Origin: Cyclobacteriaceae bacterium
GTDB lineage: Bacteria; Bacteroidota; Bacteroidia; Cytophagales; Cyclobacteriaceae
NCBI GenBank assembly: GCA_016787645.1
Contig: JAEUUF010000016.1
Location: 1-64,000 of the forward strand
Length of the DNA: 64,000 nt
Direction of reading: 5' to 3'
The translations under genes and the position numbers were made by a program. The notes beneath the pieces are model-generated. The model worked only from the letters and a program-made list of their open reading frames with translations, was not told the DNA's origin and ran no database searches. Shown here in pieces: positions 57,396-64,000 of the stretch. How positions within the stretch are numbered: the first letter of the stretch is position 1; each line of letters begins with the position of its first letter.

Positions 57396-58250
57396 TCAAT
57401 GATTTCCAAACGCCCATGTCAGAAAGTGCGGCAGGGCTTCCGCCCACGTTTCCTGGTTGTGACGACCGTTCTTTATTTCGAGGTACTGAATGTCGTGGAA
57501 TGGCCGGTAGCCCTTGCGAGTTAATTCACTGATGAGGTCCATGGTATCGTCAATCGAATCGATCACTCCATTCTTGTTGCGGTCCTGGTCTTCGTCCAGG
57601 GTTCCTGTCTGGAACCAGAACTTAAGTCCCGGCTTGAACTTTCCCCTGCGCACCTGGAGGTGCATCAGGCGATCGCGGTAATCGGAGTAAAAGAAGCTGC
57701 CCGAGTCGCGTTTGCGCCACCAGAAGGAGCCGCTGAAGACGCCCACCTTGCCAAACAAATCCGGGTAATTCCATACAATATCCATCGCGGAAAGTCCACC
57801 CAGGGAATACCCTCCCATGGCCCGTTGCCGGATATCCCTGGTAATGGGATGGCGGTATGTAATGTAGGGAAGGAGTTCCTTCGTAATGTATTCCGCGTAA
57901 GCTTTCGCCTGTTTACCGCGACCATGATAGTCGTGCCGGTAAGAGACACCATATTCCTGCATCCGATCACCGGCGGTGACACCCACGACAATGATTGGCG
58001 GAATCACATTTTCTCCGACTAACCGCTCCAAGGTGCTCTTCACTTTGACCCCGGGGCTATCCTGTCCATCATTGAGAATCAGCAACGGATATGCTTTGTG
58101 GCTATCAATTTCCGGGGGCGTAAATATCTCCACCTCGACATTCCTTTGAAGGATTTTCGTGTAAATGCCCGTCAACTTCTCCACGTTATACGTAAAGGCC
58201 GGTGAAGGCGAAGCGATGGGTTCCGGGGCGGGGAGGGACTGTTCTTCCAT
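57396..58250 (-). CDS. Putative esterase (PF00756, Fes/esterase D-like)
   Basis: A 284-residue alpha/beta hydrolase without a signal peptide. Nucleophile motif GGYSLGGLSA, preceded by the strand AYPLLILNDGQDSPG and followed by KVGVFSGSFWW; the likely acid is in the RNKNGVIDSIDDTMD region and the His is in NGRHNQETW. A TATTTTTG box lies 10 bases upstream of the start. It is divergent from the amidoligase-cluster esterase at 58316, so the two promoters share a 65-base gap. Confidence 0.88.
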   Translation of the reverse strand: MEEQSLPAPEPIASPSPAFTYNVEKLTGIYTKILQRNVEVEIFTPPEIDSHKAYPLLILNDGQDSPGVKVKSTLERLVGENVIPPIIVVGVTAGDRMQEYGVSYRHDYHGRGKQAKAYAEYITKELLPYITYRHPITRDIRQRAMGGYSLGGLSAMDIVWNYPDLFGKVGVFSGSFWWRKRDSGSFFYSDYRDRLMHLQVRRGKFKPGLKFWFQTGTLDEDQDRNKNGVIDSIDDTMDLISELTRKGYRPFHDIQYLEIKNGRHNQETWAEALPHFLTWAFGNH

Positions 58251-58260
58251 GGGGCGCTTG

Positions 58261-58268
58261 CAAAAATA
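58261..58268 (-). promoter_or_regulatory. -7 box (TATTTTTG on the reverse strand) for the esterase-HAD pair
   Basis: Exact TAnnTTTG match, 10 bases before the ATG at 58250. Confidence 0.6.
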
Positions 58269-58315
58269 GAAGATCGCGGACTAACTTACCTTACTGTTTA
58301 CCTATCCCCGTTCCC

Positions 58316-59023
58316 ATGTACGAACATTATCATCGCTGGTACTCCACCAGCCTTAACCGAGAAATGGAAGTTCTCGCCTTCGGCACGCGGGGTTATCCGG
58401 TCATGCTGTTCCCTACCTCCATGGGGCGGTTCTATGAGAACAAGGACTTCAAATTGCTTGATAGTGTAGCGTGGTTTGTGAACGAAGGGCTTGTGAAAAT
58501 CTATTGCCCAGACGGAATTGATTCGCTCAGTTGGTACAATCGATCTATTCATCCTGCCCAACGGGTGATGAATCACATTTGGTATGACCAGTATCTTTTA
58601 ACAGAACTTGTTCCGCTGATGCAGCGCGAGACCGGCGTTCACCGCATTGCCACCGCCGGGTGCAGCTTTGGGGGCTATCATGCCACCAATTTCGGATTCA
58701 AACATCCAGAAGTAGTAAAATACATCTTTAACATGGGCGCAGCTTTTGACATTAAAGACCAGTTGGATGGGTATTACGATGATAATGTCTATTTCAACAA
58801 CCCACCGGATTTCATACCTAATGCGCAAAATCCTTACTACCAGGATATGTTTGTTGTGCTCGGAACGGGAACACATGACATGTGCTGGGATGCCAATGAG
58901 AAGATGGCCGCGGTGCTTCGTAACAAAGGCATTCAGCATTGGCTGGATGTTCGACAGGATGCACCACACGACTGGCCCGCCTGGCGACAAATGTTCCCGC
59001 ACTACTTGTCACTGATTCGGTGA
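58316..59023 (+). CDS. COG4947-type esterase, first gene of the amidoligase cluster
   Basis: A 235-residue alpha/beta hydrolase without a signal peptide. Nucleophile Ser117 is in GCSFGGYHATNFG and the likely catalytic His is in DAPHDWPAW near the C-terminus. It belongs to the putative esterase group that includes COG4947 as I remember it. The start is ATG 58316; the longer frame back to 58202 reads through the neighbour gene on the other strand. The next hydrolase begins six bases after its stop. It may trim or transfer an ester or amide product of the downstream ligases, which is inference. Confidence 0.85.
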   Translation: MYEHYHRWYSTSLNREMEVLAFGTRGYPVMLFPTSMGRFYENKDFKLLDSVAWFVNEGLVKIYCPDGIDSLSWYNRSIHPAQRVMNHIWYDQYLLTELVPLMQRETGVHRIATAGCSFGGYHATNFGFKHPEVVKYIFNMGAAFDIKDQLDGYYDDNVYFNNPPDFIPNAQNPYYQDMFVVLGTGTHDMCWDANEKMAAVLRNKGIQHWLDVRQDAPHDWPAWRQMFPHYLSLIR

Positions 59024-59029
59024 CGCGGC

Positions 59030-59950
59030 ATGGGACGTGCCGCGGTCTTCCTATTTTTTCTCATTTCATTTTCTGATGGAGCTGGACAACAGGTTCGCTG
59101 GGCGGGAGCGGTAGATATCAACGGGGTTTCACAGTGGGTGACGGCTCGTGGAAGTGACGCAAAGAACCCGGTATTGCTTTTTTTGCATGGAGGACCCGGG
59201 AACTCCGTGATAAGTTACGCGCGCAAATTCACCAGCGAACTGGAAAGAAAATACATTGTGGTGCAGTGGGACCAGCGCAACAGCGGCAAGACAGCTACTC
59301 TTTCAAGCGTGACGCCACCGGTGTCCGTGGAAATATTGAAGAGCGACGTTGCCGCAATGATTCAGCACCTCCGTAAACAGTTCTCTTGTGAAGGAATCTA
59401 TCTCGCGGGACATTCTTGGGGCGGATTCCTCGCTTTGATTGCAGCGCAAGAACACCCTGAATGGTTGTACGCCTGTTTCGCCATCAATCCCATGGTGAAG
59501 CAGGACGAGAGCGAACGACAATCCCTGGTTTGGATGAAGGAAGAAGCACGCAGGCAGGGAAAGAAGGATGCCCTCATTGAGCTGGACAACGTGAAGGTTC
59601 CCTTTGTGGATTTCGAAGACCTCTACGTTCACCGGAAATGGCTTTCTGTTCTTCAGGGCCGCAAACCCGTGTCCAGGGAATTTGTAGAACAATGGAGCAG
59701 GCAATGGCTGACCCTATTCAAGGAAGCGTCGGCCATGGACCTTACCACTGCAACCGTTTTCAGGTGCCCGGTTTATTTCTTCCTGGGAAGCAGTGATCGT
59801 CAAACTGTTGCTCAAATCACCGCGGATTACTACGGAAAGGTTCAGGCTGAAAAAAAGGACCTCTTTTGGTTTACAAAGTCCTCCCATAGTCTTAACCTTA
59901 CGGAACCGAAAAAACTGCAGGACATTATCCTTTCCCTCCGTAATCCTTAA
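59030..59950 (+). CDS. Secreted alpha/beta hydrolase (proline iminopeptidase-like)
   Basis: A 306-residue hydrolase with a signal peptide (MGRAAVFLFFLISFSDGAGQ). The oxyanion motif HGGPGN (53-58) is the S33 peptidase/iminopeptidase signature; QWDQRNSGKT, nucleophile Ser129 in GHSWGG, VYFFLGSSDRQT and His in KSSHSLNL complete the triad region. Members cleave N-terminal residues or small esters. The signal peptide places it outside the cytoplasm, whereas the downstream ligases are cytoplasmic. Confidence 0.88.
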   Translation: MGRAAVFLFFLISFSDGAGQQVRWAGAVDINGVSQWVTARGSDAKNPVLLFLHGGPGNSVISYARKFTSELERKYIVVQWDQRNSGKTATLSSVTPPVSVEILKSDVAAMIQHLRKQFSCEGIYLAGHSWGGFLALIAAQEHPEWLYACFAINPMVKQDESERQSLVWMKEEARRQGKKDALIELDNVKVPFVDFEDLYVHRKWLSVLQGRKPVSREFVEQWSRQWLTLFKEASAMDLTTATVFRCPVYFFLGSSDRQTVAQITADYYGKVQAEKKDLFWFTKSSHSLNLTEPKKLQDIILSLRNP

Positions 59951-59953
59951 AGG

Positions 59954-59962
59954 AAAGGAGGT
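59954..59962 (+). promoter_or_regulatory. Perfect Shine-Dalgarno-like sequence at unusual spacing
   Basis: AAAGGAGGT complements the canonical 16S 3' end, which is rare for Bacteroidetes. It lies 19 bases before the ATP-grasp ATG (59982), too far for normal use, with no closer start codon. Confidence 0.4.
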
Positions 59963-59981
59963 CACCAAACGAACACAGATT

Positions 59982-61010
59982 ATGAAGAAAATTGGCGTAT
60001 TGCACGGCATGGAGCGGTCCTTTCCGGAGGCCTTTGTCGAGCGAATCAACAAAATGGGCTTAAAAGACATCAGCGCTGCACCGGTTCAAGTCGACATGGT
60101 GGAACAGGGAGCGCCTTGTGGCTATGATGTTATTATCGACCGAATTTCCCAGGACGTACCTTTCTATCGCGCCTACCTGAAGAATGCCGCGAGTACCGGA
60201 ACAGCGGTGATCAACAACCCGTTCTGGTGGAGCGCGGATGAAAAGTTCTTTAACAACGCACTGGCGTTGAAGATCGGAGTTCCCGTGCCCAAAACGGTAA
60301 TACTTCCTTCACACGAGAAGCCTACTGATACACAAGATGCCTCTTTCAGCAACCTGAAATTTCCGCTGAGCTGGGAGCAGATTTTCGCGTACATCGGCTG
60401 GCCAGCCTACATGAAGCCGCACGCAGGTGGAGGTTGGAAAAGCGTATACAAACTCCGGGGACCTGATGAATTTTTTGAGGCCTACCGCCAAACCGGCCAG
60501 TTGGTCATGATGCTTCAGGAGGAAATTATTTTTGATGATTACTTCCGTTGTTATTGCCTCGGGCGCAAATATGTGCGCATCATGCAGTACGAGCCACGAA
60601 ATCCCCATCACCTGCGCTATGCGGTAAACAAAGGACCTGCATCAGAAAAACTCCTGAAGAAAGTACATGACTACGTAATGGCGCTGAACCAGTCGTTGGG
60701 TTATGACTTCAACACGGTGGAAATGGCAGTCCGCGATGGAGTGCCTTATGCGATTGACTTCTGCAATCCCGCTCCTGACGCGGAAGTAACTTCTGTGGGC
60801 CAGGAAAATTTTGAATGGGTAGTCGAGCACGCGGCCAAGATGGCTGTGGAGCGCGCCCGCATGCATCAGCCTGGCAAGGACAACCTCACGTGGGGCACGT
60901 TTGTGTCCAACGGTGTTGCTAACTTCCTTTCCAGCCAGGGGCCGAAAGAAACGCCTGCCGCCAAGCCTGCCCCCAAAGCCGCTGCGAAAGCGCCTGCGAA
61001 AAAGAAATAG
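59982..61010 (+). CDS. ATP-grasp ligase of the amidoligase cluster
   Basis: A 342-residue RimK-like ATP-grasp protein that should join a carboxylate to an amine using ATP. The P-loop-like region YMKPHAGGGWKSVYKL has the ATP-binding Lys145 and a Gly-rich loop. The hinge MLQEEIIFDDYFRCYCLGRKYVR and Mg ligands (Glu247 in FNTVEMAV; Asp259 and Asn262 in IDFCNPAP) are in the expected order. The N-terminal 100 residues resemble a pre-ATP-grasp domain. It ends with a 21-residue Ala/Pro/Lys tail. The start is ATG 59982 (MKKIGVLHGMERSF); the longer frame from 59793 lies within the hydrolase gene. The specific substrate is unknown. Confidence 0.85.
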   Translation: MKKIGVLHGMERSFPEAFVERINKMGLKDISAAPVQVDMVEQGAPCGYDVIIDRISQDVPFYRAYLKNAASTGTAVINNPFWWSADEKFFNNALALKIGVPVPKTVILPSHEKPTDTQDASFSNLKFPLSWEQIFAYIGWPAYMKPHAGGGWKSVYKLRGPDEFFEAYRQTGQLVMMLQEEIIFDDYFRCYCLGRKYVRIMQYEPRNPHHLRYAVNKGPASEKLLKKVHDYVMALNQSLGYDFNTVEMAVRDGVPYAIDFCNPAPDAEVTSVGQENFEWVVEHAAKMAVERARMHQPGKDNLTWGTFVSNGVANFLSSQGPKETPAAKPAPKAAAKAPAKKK

Positions 61011-61024
61011 TCTTATCTCTGCAC

Positions 61025-62122
61025 ATGGAAAAGTTTACGCTCGGGGTAGAGGAAGAATACATGGTGGTAAACCCGATGTCGCGGGAACTCGCCTCCCATG
61101 ATCAGAAGATTGTAGAAATCGCCGCCAAGGTGCTAAACGACCAGGTGAAGGCGGAGATGCACCAGGCGGTCGTTGAAGTAGGCTCGGGCATCTGTCGGGA
61201 TGCCGAAGAAGCGCGGAAAGATATTGTTCGTTTGAGAAAAGGTGTGGCAGAGATTGCGGCAAGCCTCGGACTGAGAATTGGTGCTTCGGGTACCCATCCG
61301 TTCTCCCACTGGTCCCAGCAACTCATTACGCCTAACCCGCGCTACGATGCCATCGTCAATGAAATGCAGGAGGCGGCGCGTTCCAACCTGATTTTCGGCT
61401 TGCACGTGCATGTGGGAATTTCAGACAAGAACACGGCCATTCACATCATGAATACGGCGCGGTATTTTCTTCCCCACATTTATGCCCTGTCGTGTAACTC
61501 TCCTTTCTGGGAAGGCCGCAACACGGGATTCAAATCTTTCCGCACGAAGGTGTTTGACAAATTTCCACGCACGGGCATCCCGGATGACTTTGCCGATTGG
61601 GATGATTACAAGAACTACGTCAACCTGTTGATCAAGACAGGCTGCATTGACAATGCCAAGAAGATCTGGTGGGATGTACGCGTTCACCCATTCTTTGACA
61701 CGATTGAGTTTCGAATCTGTGACGTTCCCATGCGGGTGGAGGAGTCGATCGCTATCGCTGCCCTGTTCCAGGCGGTGGTGGCCAAGCTATACAAGCTTCG
61801 TCAGCACAACCTGAGCTTCATCATGTACCATCGTGCGCTGATTAACGAGAATAAGTGGCGAGCTTCCCGTTACGGACTCGATGGTAAACTCATTGACTTT
61901 GGGAAAGAAGTGGAGGTTGACACCCGGACACTTATTCATGAGCTTCTTGATTTTGTTGATGACGTAGTCGACGACCTGGGCAACCGCCATGCGCTGAAGA
62001 CCATCGAGAAAATTTTGGCTGAGGGAACAGGGGCCGACCGGCAGTTAGCGGTATTTGAGCAGACGAAAAGCCTGCCAGCGGTCGTCGATTATATTGTTGA
62101 GCAGACGCTGAAGGACTGCTGA
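61025..62122 (+). CDS. GCS2/YbdK-type carboxylate-amine ligase
   Basis: A 365-residue glutamate-cysteine-ligase-2 family (COG2170) enzyme. Opening motif FTLGVEEEYMVV (metal/glutamate site, residues 7-12), GSGICRDAEEARKD, GLHVHVGISD with His127 and His129, and FRICDVPMRVEE (Arg230 region) are all intact. The family forms gamma-glutamyl or similar amide bonds. The true substrate is unknown and E. coli YbdK is only weakly active with Cys. It begins 14 bases after the ATP-grasp gene. Its TGA stop lies in the same frame as the following amidotransferase. Confidence 0.93.
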   Translation: MEKFTLGVEEEYMVVNPMSRELASHDQKIVEIAAKVLNDQVKAEMHQAVVEVGSGICRDAEEARKDIVRLRKGVAEIAASLGLRIGASGTHPFSHWSQQLITPNPRYDAIVNEMQEAARSNLIFGLHVHVGISDKNTAIHIMNTARYFLPHIYALSCNSPFWEGRNTGFKSFRTKVFDKFPRTGIPDDFADWDDYKNYVNLLIKTGCIDNAKKIWWDVRVHPFFDTIEFRICDVPMRVEESIAIAALFQAVVAKLYKLRQHNLSFIMYHRALINENKWRASRYGLDGKLIDFGKEVEVDTRTLIHELLDFVDDVVDDLGNRHALKTIEKILAEGTGADRQLAVFEQTKSLPAVVDYIVEQTLKDC

Positions 62123-62167
62123 GATGATTGGCCAGGCGCCTGTCATTTCTTTCCAAATAGGGTTAAC

Positions 62168-63019
62168 TTGCGTTCCCGTTTGAAGCACGCCGACACCATC
62201 CGAATCGCCATCCTCGACATGTATGAGGGCACCCCCAACGAAGGAATGCGGGGAATACGGGAGATTATCGAGGAATTCGGTTCAGAAAATCAACTCAACA
62301 TACACTACGACATTTTTGATGTCCGCTCGAAGGCGGAGGTTCCTGGGGTCGACTATGACGCATACATTTCCACTGGTGGCCCTGGAAGCCCATTGGACAG
62401 CGAGGGCTCTGTATGGGAACAAAAGTATTTTGAGCTGATCGAGAATATCAAGGAGCACAATCGCCAGCATCCTGAAAGCCAGAAACATGTTTTTCTTATT
62501 TGTCACTCCTTCCAGGTGTTCTGCCGGTACTACGGCTACGGACTGGTTTCGAAGCGGAAGAGCACTTCGTTCGGTGTGATGCCGGAACACAAAACCGAGG
62601 ATGGAAAGCATGAACCGCTTTTGGCGGGATTGAGTGATCCCTTTTGGGCTGTCGATTCCCGCGATTACCAGCTGACGAAACCTAATTTGAAGAAGATGGA
62701 GGAAGAAGGAGGGGTTGTCTTGTGTATCGAAAAATACCGGCCGCATGTGGCGCTCGAGCGGGCGGTGATGGCGATCCGCTTCGACGAAGCTTTCTTTGGC
62801 ACCCAATTTCATCCCGAAGCCGATGCGGAAGGTATGCGCAAGTATTTGCTCAGGGACGACAAGCGGGAGATCGTAACTGAAAAATTTGGAGAGACGAAAT
62901 ATCGCGACATGCTGGAGCATTTGAATGACCCCGACAAGATCATGCTCACGCATAATACCATTCTCCCTGGCTTTCTCACCCGGGCTCTGCGTCACCGGCT
63001 TACCGAAGTAACTTCATGA
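62168..63019 (+). CDS. Class I glutamine amidotransferase-fold protein
   Basis: A 283-residue class I GATase-fold protein. Nucleophile Cys112 is in FLICHSFQVFC, the oxyanion loop in STGGPGSPLD (68-77), and the His215/Glu217 pair in GTQFHPEADAEG, so the triad looks intact. It could donate ammonia to a ligase, hydrolyse gamma-glutamyl bonds like PuuD, or be a MetA-like acyltransferase (AVDSRDYQ is reminiscent of that group). No ATG is available before the first strand IRIAILDMY; TTG 62168 (or TTG 62180) is assigned. The frame is open back to the GCS2 stop at 62120-62122. The stop overlaps the next ATG (ATGA). Confidence 0.85.
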   Translation: MRSRLKHADTIRIAILDMYEGTPNEGMRGIREIIEEFGSENQLNIHYDIFDVRSKAEVPGVDYDAYISTGGPGSPLDSEGSVWEQKYFELIENIKEHNRQHPESQKHVFLICHSFQVFCRYYGYGLVSKRKSTSFGVMPEHKTEDGKHEPLLAGLSDPFWAVDSRDYQLTKPNLKKMEEEGGVVLCIEKYRPHVALERAVMAIRFDEAFFGTQFHPEADAEGMRKYLLRDDKREIVTEKFGETKYRDMLEHLNDPDKIMLTHNTILPGFLTRALRHRLTEVTS

Positions 63020-64000
63020 TCCCTTCCGTCCGCCAGGCTTACAACCAGCAATTCTCGGAAGAAAAATACCGCCGCTTTATCGGCGATCTGAACCGCATTT
63101 TCCATCGGGAGATCACCTTTCGCGTGGCGGAGACTCCGGTTTTTGTTGGAAAGGATTTTGAAGCCCAACTGAGAAAGGCAGGTGACGACATTATTGATTT
63201 TCTCGTGCGGCCGGATTTTAAGACAATTACCGAAAAGGCCATTCCTGAAAAGCTTCGCGTACCCAATGAAACGGACCGGTCATTGTTTCTCGCACTGGAT
63301 TTTGGTGTGGTTGATATCAATGGGAAACCGGAACCAAGACTCATTGAGATGCAAGGATTCCCATCGTTGTTTGGATGGCAGGATGTGTTGTCAGCCAAGT
63401 ACCGGGAGCACTTTGCTGTACCGGCGAAAATGCAGAGTCATTTTGGATTGAATTCCGCGGATTACCGTGCGCTGCTGAAGCAGTTGCTGCTGGATAACCA
63501 CGACCCGAACGAGACTATCTTGCTGGAGATTGACCCCATGAAGCAAAACACGGCGGTTGATTTTCTGGCCACGCAGGCGATGACCGGCATCACGCCTGTT
63601 CATATCGGTGACTTGGTGCGTAAAGGAAAGAAACTCTTTTACACTCGTGAGGGCAAAAGCATTGAGGTGAAGCGCATTTACAACCGGGTAATCTTTGACG
63701 AATTGGTGAAGCGCCCTGATCTAATCATGGATTTCAACCTAACCGAAGACGTGGACGTTTCATGGGCCGGTCATCCGAACTGGTTTTTCCGGATCAGCAA
63801 GTACACCATGCCGATGATCCAAAGCCGGTATATCCCTGAATGCAAATTCTTGTCAGACTTCACCCAATATCCCGCGGACCTTGAGAACTATGTTTTGAAG
63901 CCTTTGTTTTCTTTCTCCGGTACCGGCGTAATCTTTCATGTGACCCCCGATGATTTGAAGAATGTTCGTGAGGAAGATCGTTCCAACTTCATGTTGCAGC
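63016..64000 (+). CDS. Second ATP-grasp-like protein, apparently circularly permuted (3' end outside window)
   Basis: An open frame of 328 complete codons that runs off the window. The ATG overlaps the amidotransferase stop. LALDFGVVDINGKPEPRLIEMQGFPSLFG (in part; Glu111) looks like the metal-binding strand usually found near an ATP-grasp C-terminus. VKRIYNRVIFDEL (218-230) resembles the R-x-Y-x-R core of circularly permuted ATP-grasp enzymes, and YVLKPLFSFSGTGVIF with Lys295 (residues 292-307) is the ATP-binding Gly-rich loop. The late position of the Lys/Gly loop suggests circular permutation. The substrate is unknown. It is the third amide-ligase candidate of the cluster. Confidence 0.75.
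   Translation, partial: MIPSVRQAYNQQFSEEKYRRFIGDLNRIFHREITFRVAETPVFVGKDFEAQLRKAGDDIIDFLVRPDFKTITEKAIPEKLRVPNETDRSLFLALDFGVVDINGKPEPRLIEMQGFPSLFGWQDVLSAKYREHFAVPAKMQSHFGLNSADYRALLKQLLLDNHDPNETILLEIDPMKQNTAVDFLATQAMTGITPVHIGDLVRKGKKLFYTREGKSIEVKRIYNRVIFDELVKRPDLIMDFNLTEDVDVSWAGHPNWFFRISKYTMPMIQSRYIPECKFLSDFTQYPADLENYVLKPLFSFSGTGVIFHVTPDDLKNVREEDRSNFMLQ

Follow-up and report, generated by a model that had tools for sequence, protein, structure and literature searches.

The glutathione and glutathionylspermidine synthetases share a fold in which a metal motif, D..E.N, stands ahead of two ATP-binding lysines, and the amidase domain of glutathionylspermidine synthetase (Gss) has a CHAP/papain-like fold. 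RimK adds glutamate to ribosomal protein S6, and the RimK-like family usually has a Glu at the second metal motif. PuuA, of the Puu polyamine route, is a gamma-glutamylputrescine ligase with the glutamine synthetase fold, and the N-acetylglutaminylglutamine amide operon has an asparagine-synthetase-like amidotransferase and the Ngg ligase. Peptide-spermidine ligase activity is described for Escherichia coli YgiC and YjfC in passages of a study that cites the work (PMC12568646), in agreement with the annotation of the ygiC record. We analyzed the first 64,000 bases (the window) of contig C6 (JAEUUF010000016.1) of a Cyclobacteriaceae bacterium, whose genome comprises 4.0 Mb in 28 contigs. The window contains a cluster of genes for two ATP-grasp ligases, GRASP and the circularly permuted cpGRASP, a carboxylate-amine ligase (GCS2), a class I glutamine-amidotransferase-fold protein (GAT), a small esterase (EST) and an alpha/beta hydrolase (ABH). 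With slightly better than even confidence, we read this cluster as encoding a pathway, widespread in Bacteroidota, that makes a small gamma-glutamyl peptide without ribosomes and may cap it with an amine. Since three unrelated amide-bond-forming enzymes are brought together, one of them with the architecture of the glutathione and glutathionylspermidine synthetases, the product is probably a small peptide containing glutamyl or a conjugate of such a peptide with an amine. A description of the cluster was not found in open-access literature searches, and an earlier listing in the 2009 amidoligase survey is possible.

The predicted structure of cpGRASP has the circularly permuted ATP-grasp fold of the glutathione, glutathionylspermidine and trypanothione synthetases and of YgiC/YjfC, and the protein lies above the cut-off of no Pfam or NCBIfam family. 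We scored catalytic residues on all orthologues above the score threshold in the fetched loci, and D95, E111, K262 and K295 of cpGRASP are invariant (129/129). The E. coli YgiC and YjfC proteins share the fold at an identity of about 13–14%; unlike cpGRASP, ygiC adjoins ygiB and tolC and no ligase cluster. As in glutathione synthesis by a GCS2-type ligase and a eukaryotic-type synthetase, the cluster pairs a PF04107 protein with a glutathione-synthetase-fold ligase in one operon, but it has an additional RimK-like ligase, hydrolases and esterases, and none of its six proteins reached a glutathione equivalog cut-off (GshA/GshB). Furthermore, the candidate for the amidase is a stand-alone protein of the GATase fold, in contrast to the fused amidase domain of Gss and trypanothione synthetase. 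The original prediction had held that no recognized pathway fits. The cpGRASP fold revises this, in that glutathione and glutathionylspermidine metabolism offers a logic that fits as a type of chemistry, not as that pathway; the cluster appears to resemble this metabolism. For the Puu route, no glutamine synthetase family is among the profile matches of the cluster proteins.

GRASP also lies above no Pfam cut-off, and matches the NCBIfam RimK family TIGR00768 (E = 2.6e-6) with 27 bits, below the cut-off of 143.4. Its predicted structure has the fold and the nucleotide loop of RimK-like ligases, with conserved KPxxGGG, E180 and D259/N262. Identity to the RimK, LysX and ArgX ligases is 13–17%, and GRASP differs from their family in having an Asp at the second metal motif (D259..N262). 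The protein ends in a low-complexity tail rich in Lys, Ala and Pro (window ~60933–61010), which in relatives ranges from absent to ~75 residues. GCS2 exceeds the cut-offs of PF04107 (225 bits, cut-off 21) and of NCBIfam PRK13515 (540 bits, cut-off 371), and its EEE, H127, H129 and R230 are conserved in 93/93 orthologues.

The closest folds to GRASP include RimK, and LysX/ArgX with their carrier LysW, which favors a role in peptide or protein tagging, where GRASP would put Glu or another amino acid on a protein end and the other enzymes would edit the tag. We consider this very unlikely, as the cpGRASP fold is that of small-molecule ligases and no small carrier protein was seen among the neighboring open reading frames (ORFs) of 110 residues or longer, although a shorter carrier or substrate peptide may exist. 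The RLAN-RimK/GCS2/C39-peptidase trio resembles the cluster in combining an ATP-grasp ligase, GCS2 and a peptidase; however, it is built from other subfamilies, and no cpGRASP, GATase or esterase is among the surrounding ORFs listed. The same genome has a tightly packed C39-like cysteine peptidase, RLAN-RimK (483 aa) and GCS2 (412 aa) at C3 ~95090–98517 (L004:7091–10518).

We compared the occurrence of the ligase cluster in 148 genomes, a fixed set spread across the phylum Bacteroidota, and in 80 named loci. The latter are the best 80 of 592 confirmed matches, are biased towards relatives of the window, and all bear names that we take to be Bacteroidota. GRASP is the most widespread core ligase in the sample (58/148 genomes, from 60 matches of which two with 32–34% identity were set aside), with GCS2 in 52/148, cpGRASP in 49/148 and GAT in 40/148. 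Genomes with cpGRASP nearly always have GRASP (48/49) and GCS2 (47/49), and GRASP was found in 40/40 GAT genomes. In 18 of the 48 genomes having both, GRASP and cpGRASP lie on separate contigs or are separated by 745 kb or more, and thus co-occurrence is more than linkage. Some of the 18 are draft assemblies, in which linkage could be concealed by a break between contigs, and the tests of co-occurrence count related genomes as independent.

Around cpGRASP, the same-strand order is EST-GRASP-GCS2-GAT-cpGRASP, from which members may drop out but which is never permuted. The complete order is seen in 14 of the 49 sampled and 43 of the 80 named loci, and cpGRASP stands alone in 18 (one at a contig break) and 6, respectively. 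Cultured carriers include Spirosoma, Hymenobacter, Dyadobacter, Flavobacterium, Pedobacter and Chitinophaga strains. The gene order is therefore kept well beyond close relatives, a point on which the original prediction had staked itself, and its statement that the active-site motifs are intact is borne out by near-complete residue counts across the orthologues of GAT, cpGRASP, EST and GCS2. The proposed six-gene unit did not hold up. ABH is near the cluster in only 2/49 sampled and 4/80 named loci, so that the core comprises five genes and ABH, whose hydrophobic N-terminus resembles a signal peptide, is lineage-specific. Between-genome distances of the core proteins, the only ones compared, correlate (Spearman 0.39–0.72), as expected for joint vertical descent. 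We rejected carriage on plasmids, as GRASP and cpGRASP had no match in 72,556 plasmid records (E 1e-5).

GAT exceeds the PF00117 cut-off (38.9 bits, cut-off 22.8) and has the Cys-His-Glu triad C112/H215/E217 of class I amidotransferases (Cys 111/111, His 111/111, Glu 110/111). These features, and the 4-base overlap of GAT with cpGRASP in 8/49 sampled loci, as for co-made subunits, are consistent with an amidated osmolyte, in which GAT would supply ammonia for an amidated di- or tripeptide with a purpose like that of N-acetylglutaminylglutamine amide. However, the usual class I nucleophile motif is C-x-G-x-Q, and GAT instead has C-H-S-F-Q, with S114 invariant in 17 aligned sequences. A GAT-fold orthologue was not found in 18/58 GRASP carriers (E 1e-15); in two of these (G055 and G093), GCS2 and cpGRASP flank an aminopeptidase of the M29 family. 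In addition, the families characteristic of the N-acetylglutaminylglutamine amide operon are absent among the profile matches of the cluster proteins. We regard the osmolyte as unlikely. GAT is dispensable, and two genomes have an M29 peptidase where it would otherwise stand, which suggests that GAT hydrolyses, trimming or releasing a product, instead of amidating. We rejected the idea that M29 generally substitutes for GAT, since orthologues occur in 2 genomes only. The original prediction had proposed a set that builds, amidates and trims a small peptide or amide; building and trimming stand, and amidation is doubtful.

From the observed folds, active-site conservation, co-occurrence and gene order, we infer a scheme for the proposed gamma-glutamyl peptide pathway, including its substrates, the order of its steps and hydrolysis by GAT. 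GCS2, judging from its family, would first couple an amino compound to a carboxylate of glutamate. GRASP, given its fold and active site, would add a further amino acid via an acyl phosphate, and cpGRASP, given its fold and catalytic residues, would close the C-terminus through an amide bond to an amino acid or amine. The Cys-His-Glu protein GAT may then cleave, like the amidase half of Gss or a gamma-glutamyl hydrolase, and the PF00756 esterases could strip an acyl, ester or thioester group off the product or off conjugates of it.

Several observations weigh against this scheme. In cpGRASP, a Gln (Q113) occupies the position of the metal-binding Asn (129/129), the Arg of Gss R316/YgiC R100 is missing (19 aligned sequences have A, Q, V, T or I at position 93), and an invariant R224 is opposite the Trp-Glu of Gss/YgiC in a low-identity alignment, in which an Asn-Arg of cpGRASP aligns with the Trp-Glu of YgiC. 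Taken together, the missing Arg, the Asn to Gln exchange and R224 indicate that the cpGRASP substrate probably differs from those of Gss and YgiC. The best PDB profile match, YgiC, is weak (E = 0.027), and hhalign against Gss gave E = 0.14 and a probability of 0.4%. The sole equivalog cut-off reached is that of GCS2, for a "carboxylate-amine ligase" with no named substrate. GCS2 is missing from 2/49 cpGRASP carriers, 10 genomes have GRASP and GAT without cpGRASP, and 8 of 9 fetched cpGRASP-less loci have a permuted ATP-grasp of a second kind between GRASP and GAT. Thus, with these gaps in GCS2 and the exchange of cpGRASP for another permuted ATP-grasp, the composition of the ligase set varies. 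A search of the remaining 16 carriers without GAT found no member of the M29 family of G055 and G093, and 9 GAT-bearing genomes have distant relatives of it (26–36% identity). Finally, the bacillithiol gene bshC is present in 147/148 genomes (144 over the cut-off), and the sole miss, G109, carries the cluster.

Further variants surround the same core. In the cpGRASP-less loci L164–L171, from four lineages, a CP_ATPgrasp_2-like ligase fills the usual place of GCS2; two of the eight second-kind permuted ATP-grasps were compared with Pfam, of which one was over the CP_ATPgrasp_2 cut-off and the other below it. An esterase-profile match follows GAT in 7/9 fetched cpGRASP-less loci, with one confirmed as PF00756. 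One lineage (f14) has GRASP-GCS2-cpGRASP together and GAT elsewhere in the genome. In locus L057 (7637–10240), one 867-aa ORF joins a sodium:solute symporter and cpGRASP in frame, and in the locus L054 of a relative the two are separate adjacent genes. A third ATP-grasp family, AG4 (PF13535), is present in 33/148 sampled genomes, all of them GRASP carriers, and lies within the fetched locus in 14/80 named and 3/49 sampled cases, beside an M17 aminopeptidase in 14 named and 2 sampled loci. Examples are L062:2840–5607, with M17 beside it, and L049:10345–11553, and AG4 is near the cluster in lineage f5 and several Flavobacterium loci. A search of the window's own genome for AG4 found none.

We considered two more specific products. 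A glutathione-like thiol, for which GCS2 and cpGRASP would make gamma-Glu-Cys-X, GRASP would extend it and the esterases would act on S-acyl conjugates, is fairly unlikely, because the distribution of bshC leaves no thiol gap to fill. A product that replaces bacillithiol was rejected, since bshC is nearly universal with or without the cluster; in the window's genome it lies away from the cluster (C6:130183–131694), and none of the BshA, BshB and BshC families is among the profile matches of the cluster proteins. A glutathionylspermidine-like conjugate is possible, if rather doubtful. Here, cpGRASP would join the gamma-glutamyl peptide made by GCS2 and GRASP to spermidine or homospermidine, GAT would act as the releasing amidase, and the peptide would be one residue longer in genomes with AG4, all of this beside bacillithiol.

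Two points make a polyamine attractive as the acceptor, the use of spermidine by both of the closest folds and an association with polyamine genes. The DS family, which we take to be homospermidine-synthase-like, is present in 47/49 cpGRASP carriers against 72/99 other genomes (p = 7e-4), and DS or the carboxynorspermidine decarboxylase gene nspC in 48/49 against 75/99 (p = 3e-4), a modest difference in tests that ignore kinship and count related genomes as independent. DS is common also without the cluster, and DS or nspC occurs in 5/10 GRASP carriers that lack cpGRASP. The residues of cpGRASP that may hold the amine differ from those of Gss/YgiC, which weighs on a polyamine acceptor. We rejected nspC itself as the polyamine link, as it is over the cut-off in 5/148 genomes and has no match in the window's genome.

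The features of the locus are listed in Table 1. All six genes are present on the plus strand with the spacing originally noted, the gaps from EST to GAT being 6, 31, 14 and 45 bases and the overlap of GAT and cpGRASP 4 bases (ATGA). The start of EST is an ATG internal to a longer ORF, and GAT starts with TTG, on which choice the 45-base gap hinges. Reading past base 64000 for further members, as had been suggested, revealed none on the same strand. The next ORF (64247–65059, minus strand), which is presumably MazG-like, runs in the opposite direction, and thus the cluster ends at cpGRASP.

Table 1 Features of the ligase cluster and its divergent neighbor; coordinates are those of the window
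Feature	Coordinates	Strand	Length	Basis
Divergent esterase	57396..58250	-	284 aa	PF00756, E 3.3e-30
Intergenic region between divergent esterases	58251..58315	.	65 bases	ORF boundaries
EST, small PF00756-type esterase	58316..59023	+	235 aa	E 6.4e-7
ABH, alpha/beta hydrolase, S33, proline-iminopeptidase-like	59030..59950	+		Profile matches
GRASP, RimK/LysX/Ddl-fold ATP-grasp ligase	59982..61010	+	342 aa	Predicted structure
GCS2, carboxylate-amine ligase	61025..62122	+	365 aa	PF04107; NCBIfam PRK13515
GAT, class I glutamine-amidotransferase-fold cysteine hydrolase	62168..63019	+	283 aa	PF00117
cpGRASP, circularly permuted ATP-grasp ligase	63016..64000, to 64209 in contig C6	+	397 aa	Predicted structure

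The divergent esterase lies outside the region covered by the original prediction, and a relative of it directly adjoins the cluster EST, in divergent orientation, in 7/49 sampled and 26/80 named loci. The intergenic region between the two esterases is likely the promoter region. It contains no sigma-54-like site, and we rejected sigma-54 control of the operon, with no site nearby and a window-wide count of 5 matches where 9.5 would be expected. EST has a candidate triad of Ser117/Asp188/His218 (Ser 72/75, Asp 74/75, His 72/75). One EST copy (L044:8170–8895, genome G124) has Gly for the nucleophilic Ser and Asn for the His, beside intact GRASP, GCS2 and cpGRASP.

The cluster is thus composed of known enzyme folds in a recognizable glutathione-like logic, and what is new is the family of its last enzyme. 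At least one third of the sampled Bacteroidota genomes (49 to 58 of 148) have ligases of this proposed pathway, and literature searches did not find its product. The cpGRASP family, which matches no Pfam or NCBIfam model, gains a fold and catalytic residues. Its likeness to the glutathione and glutathionylspermidine synthetases narrows the search from an unknown amide to a small set of substrates open to direct assay.

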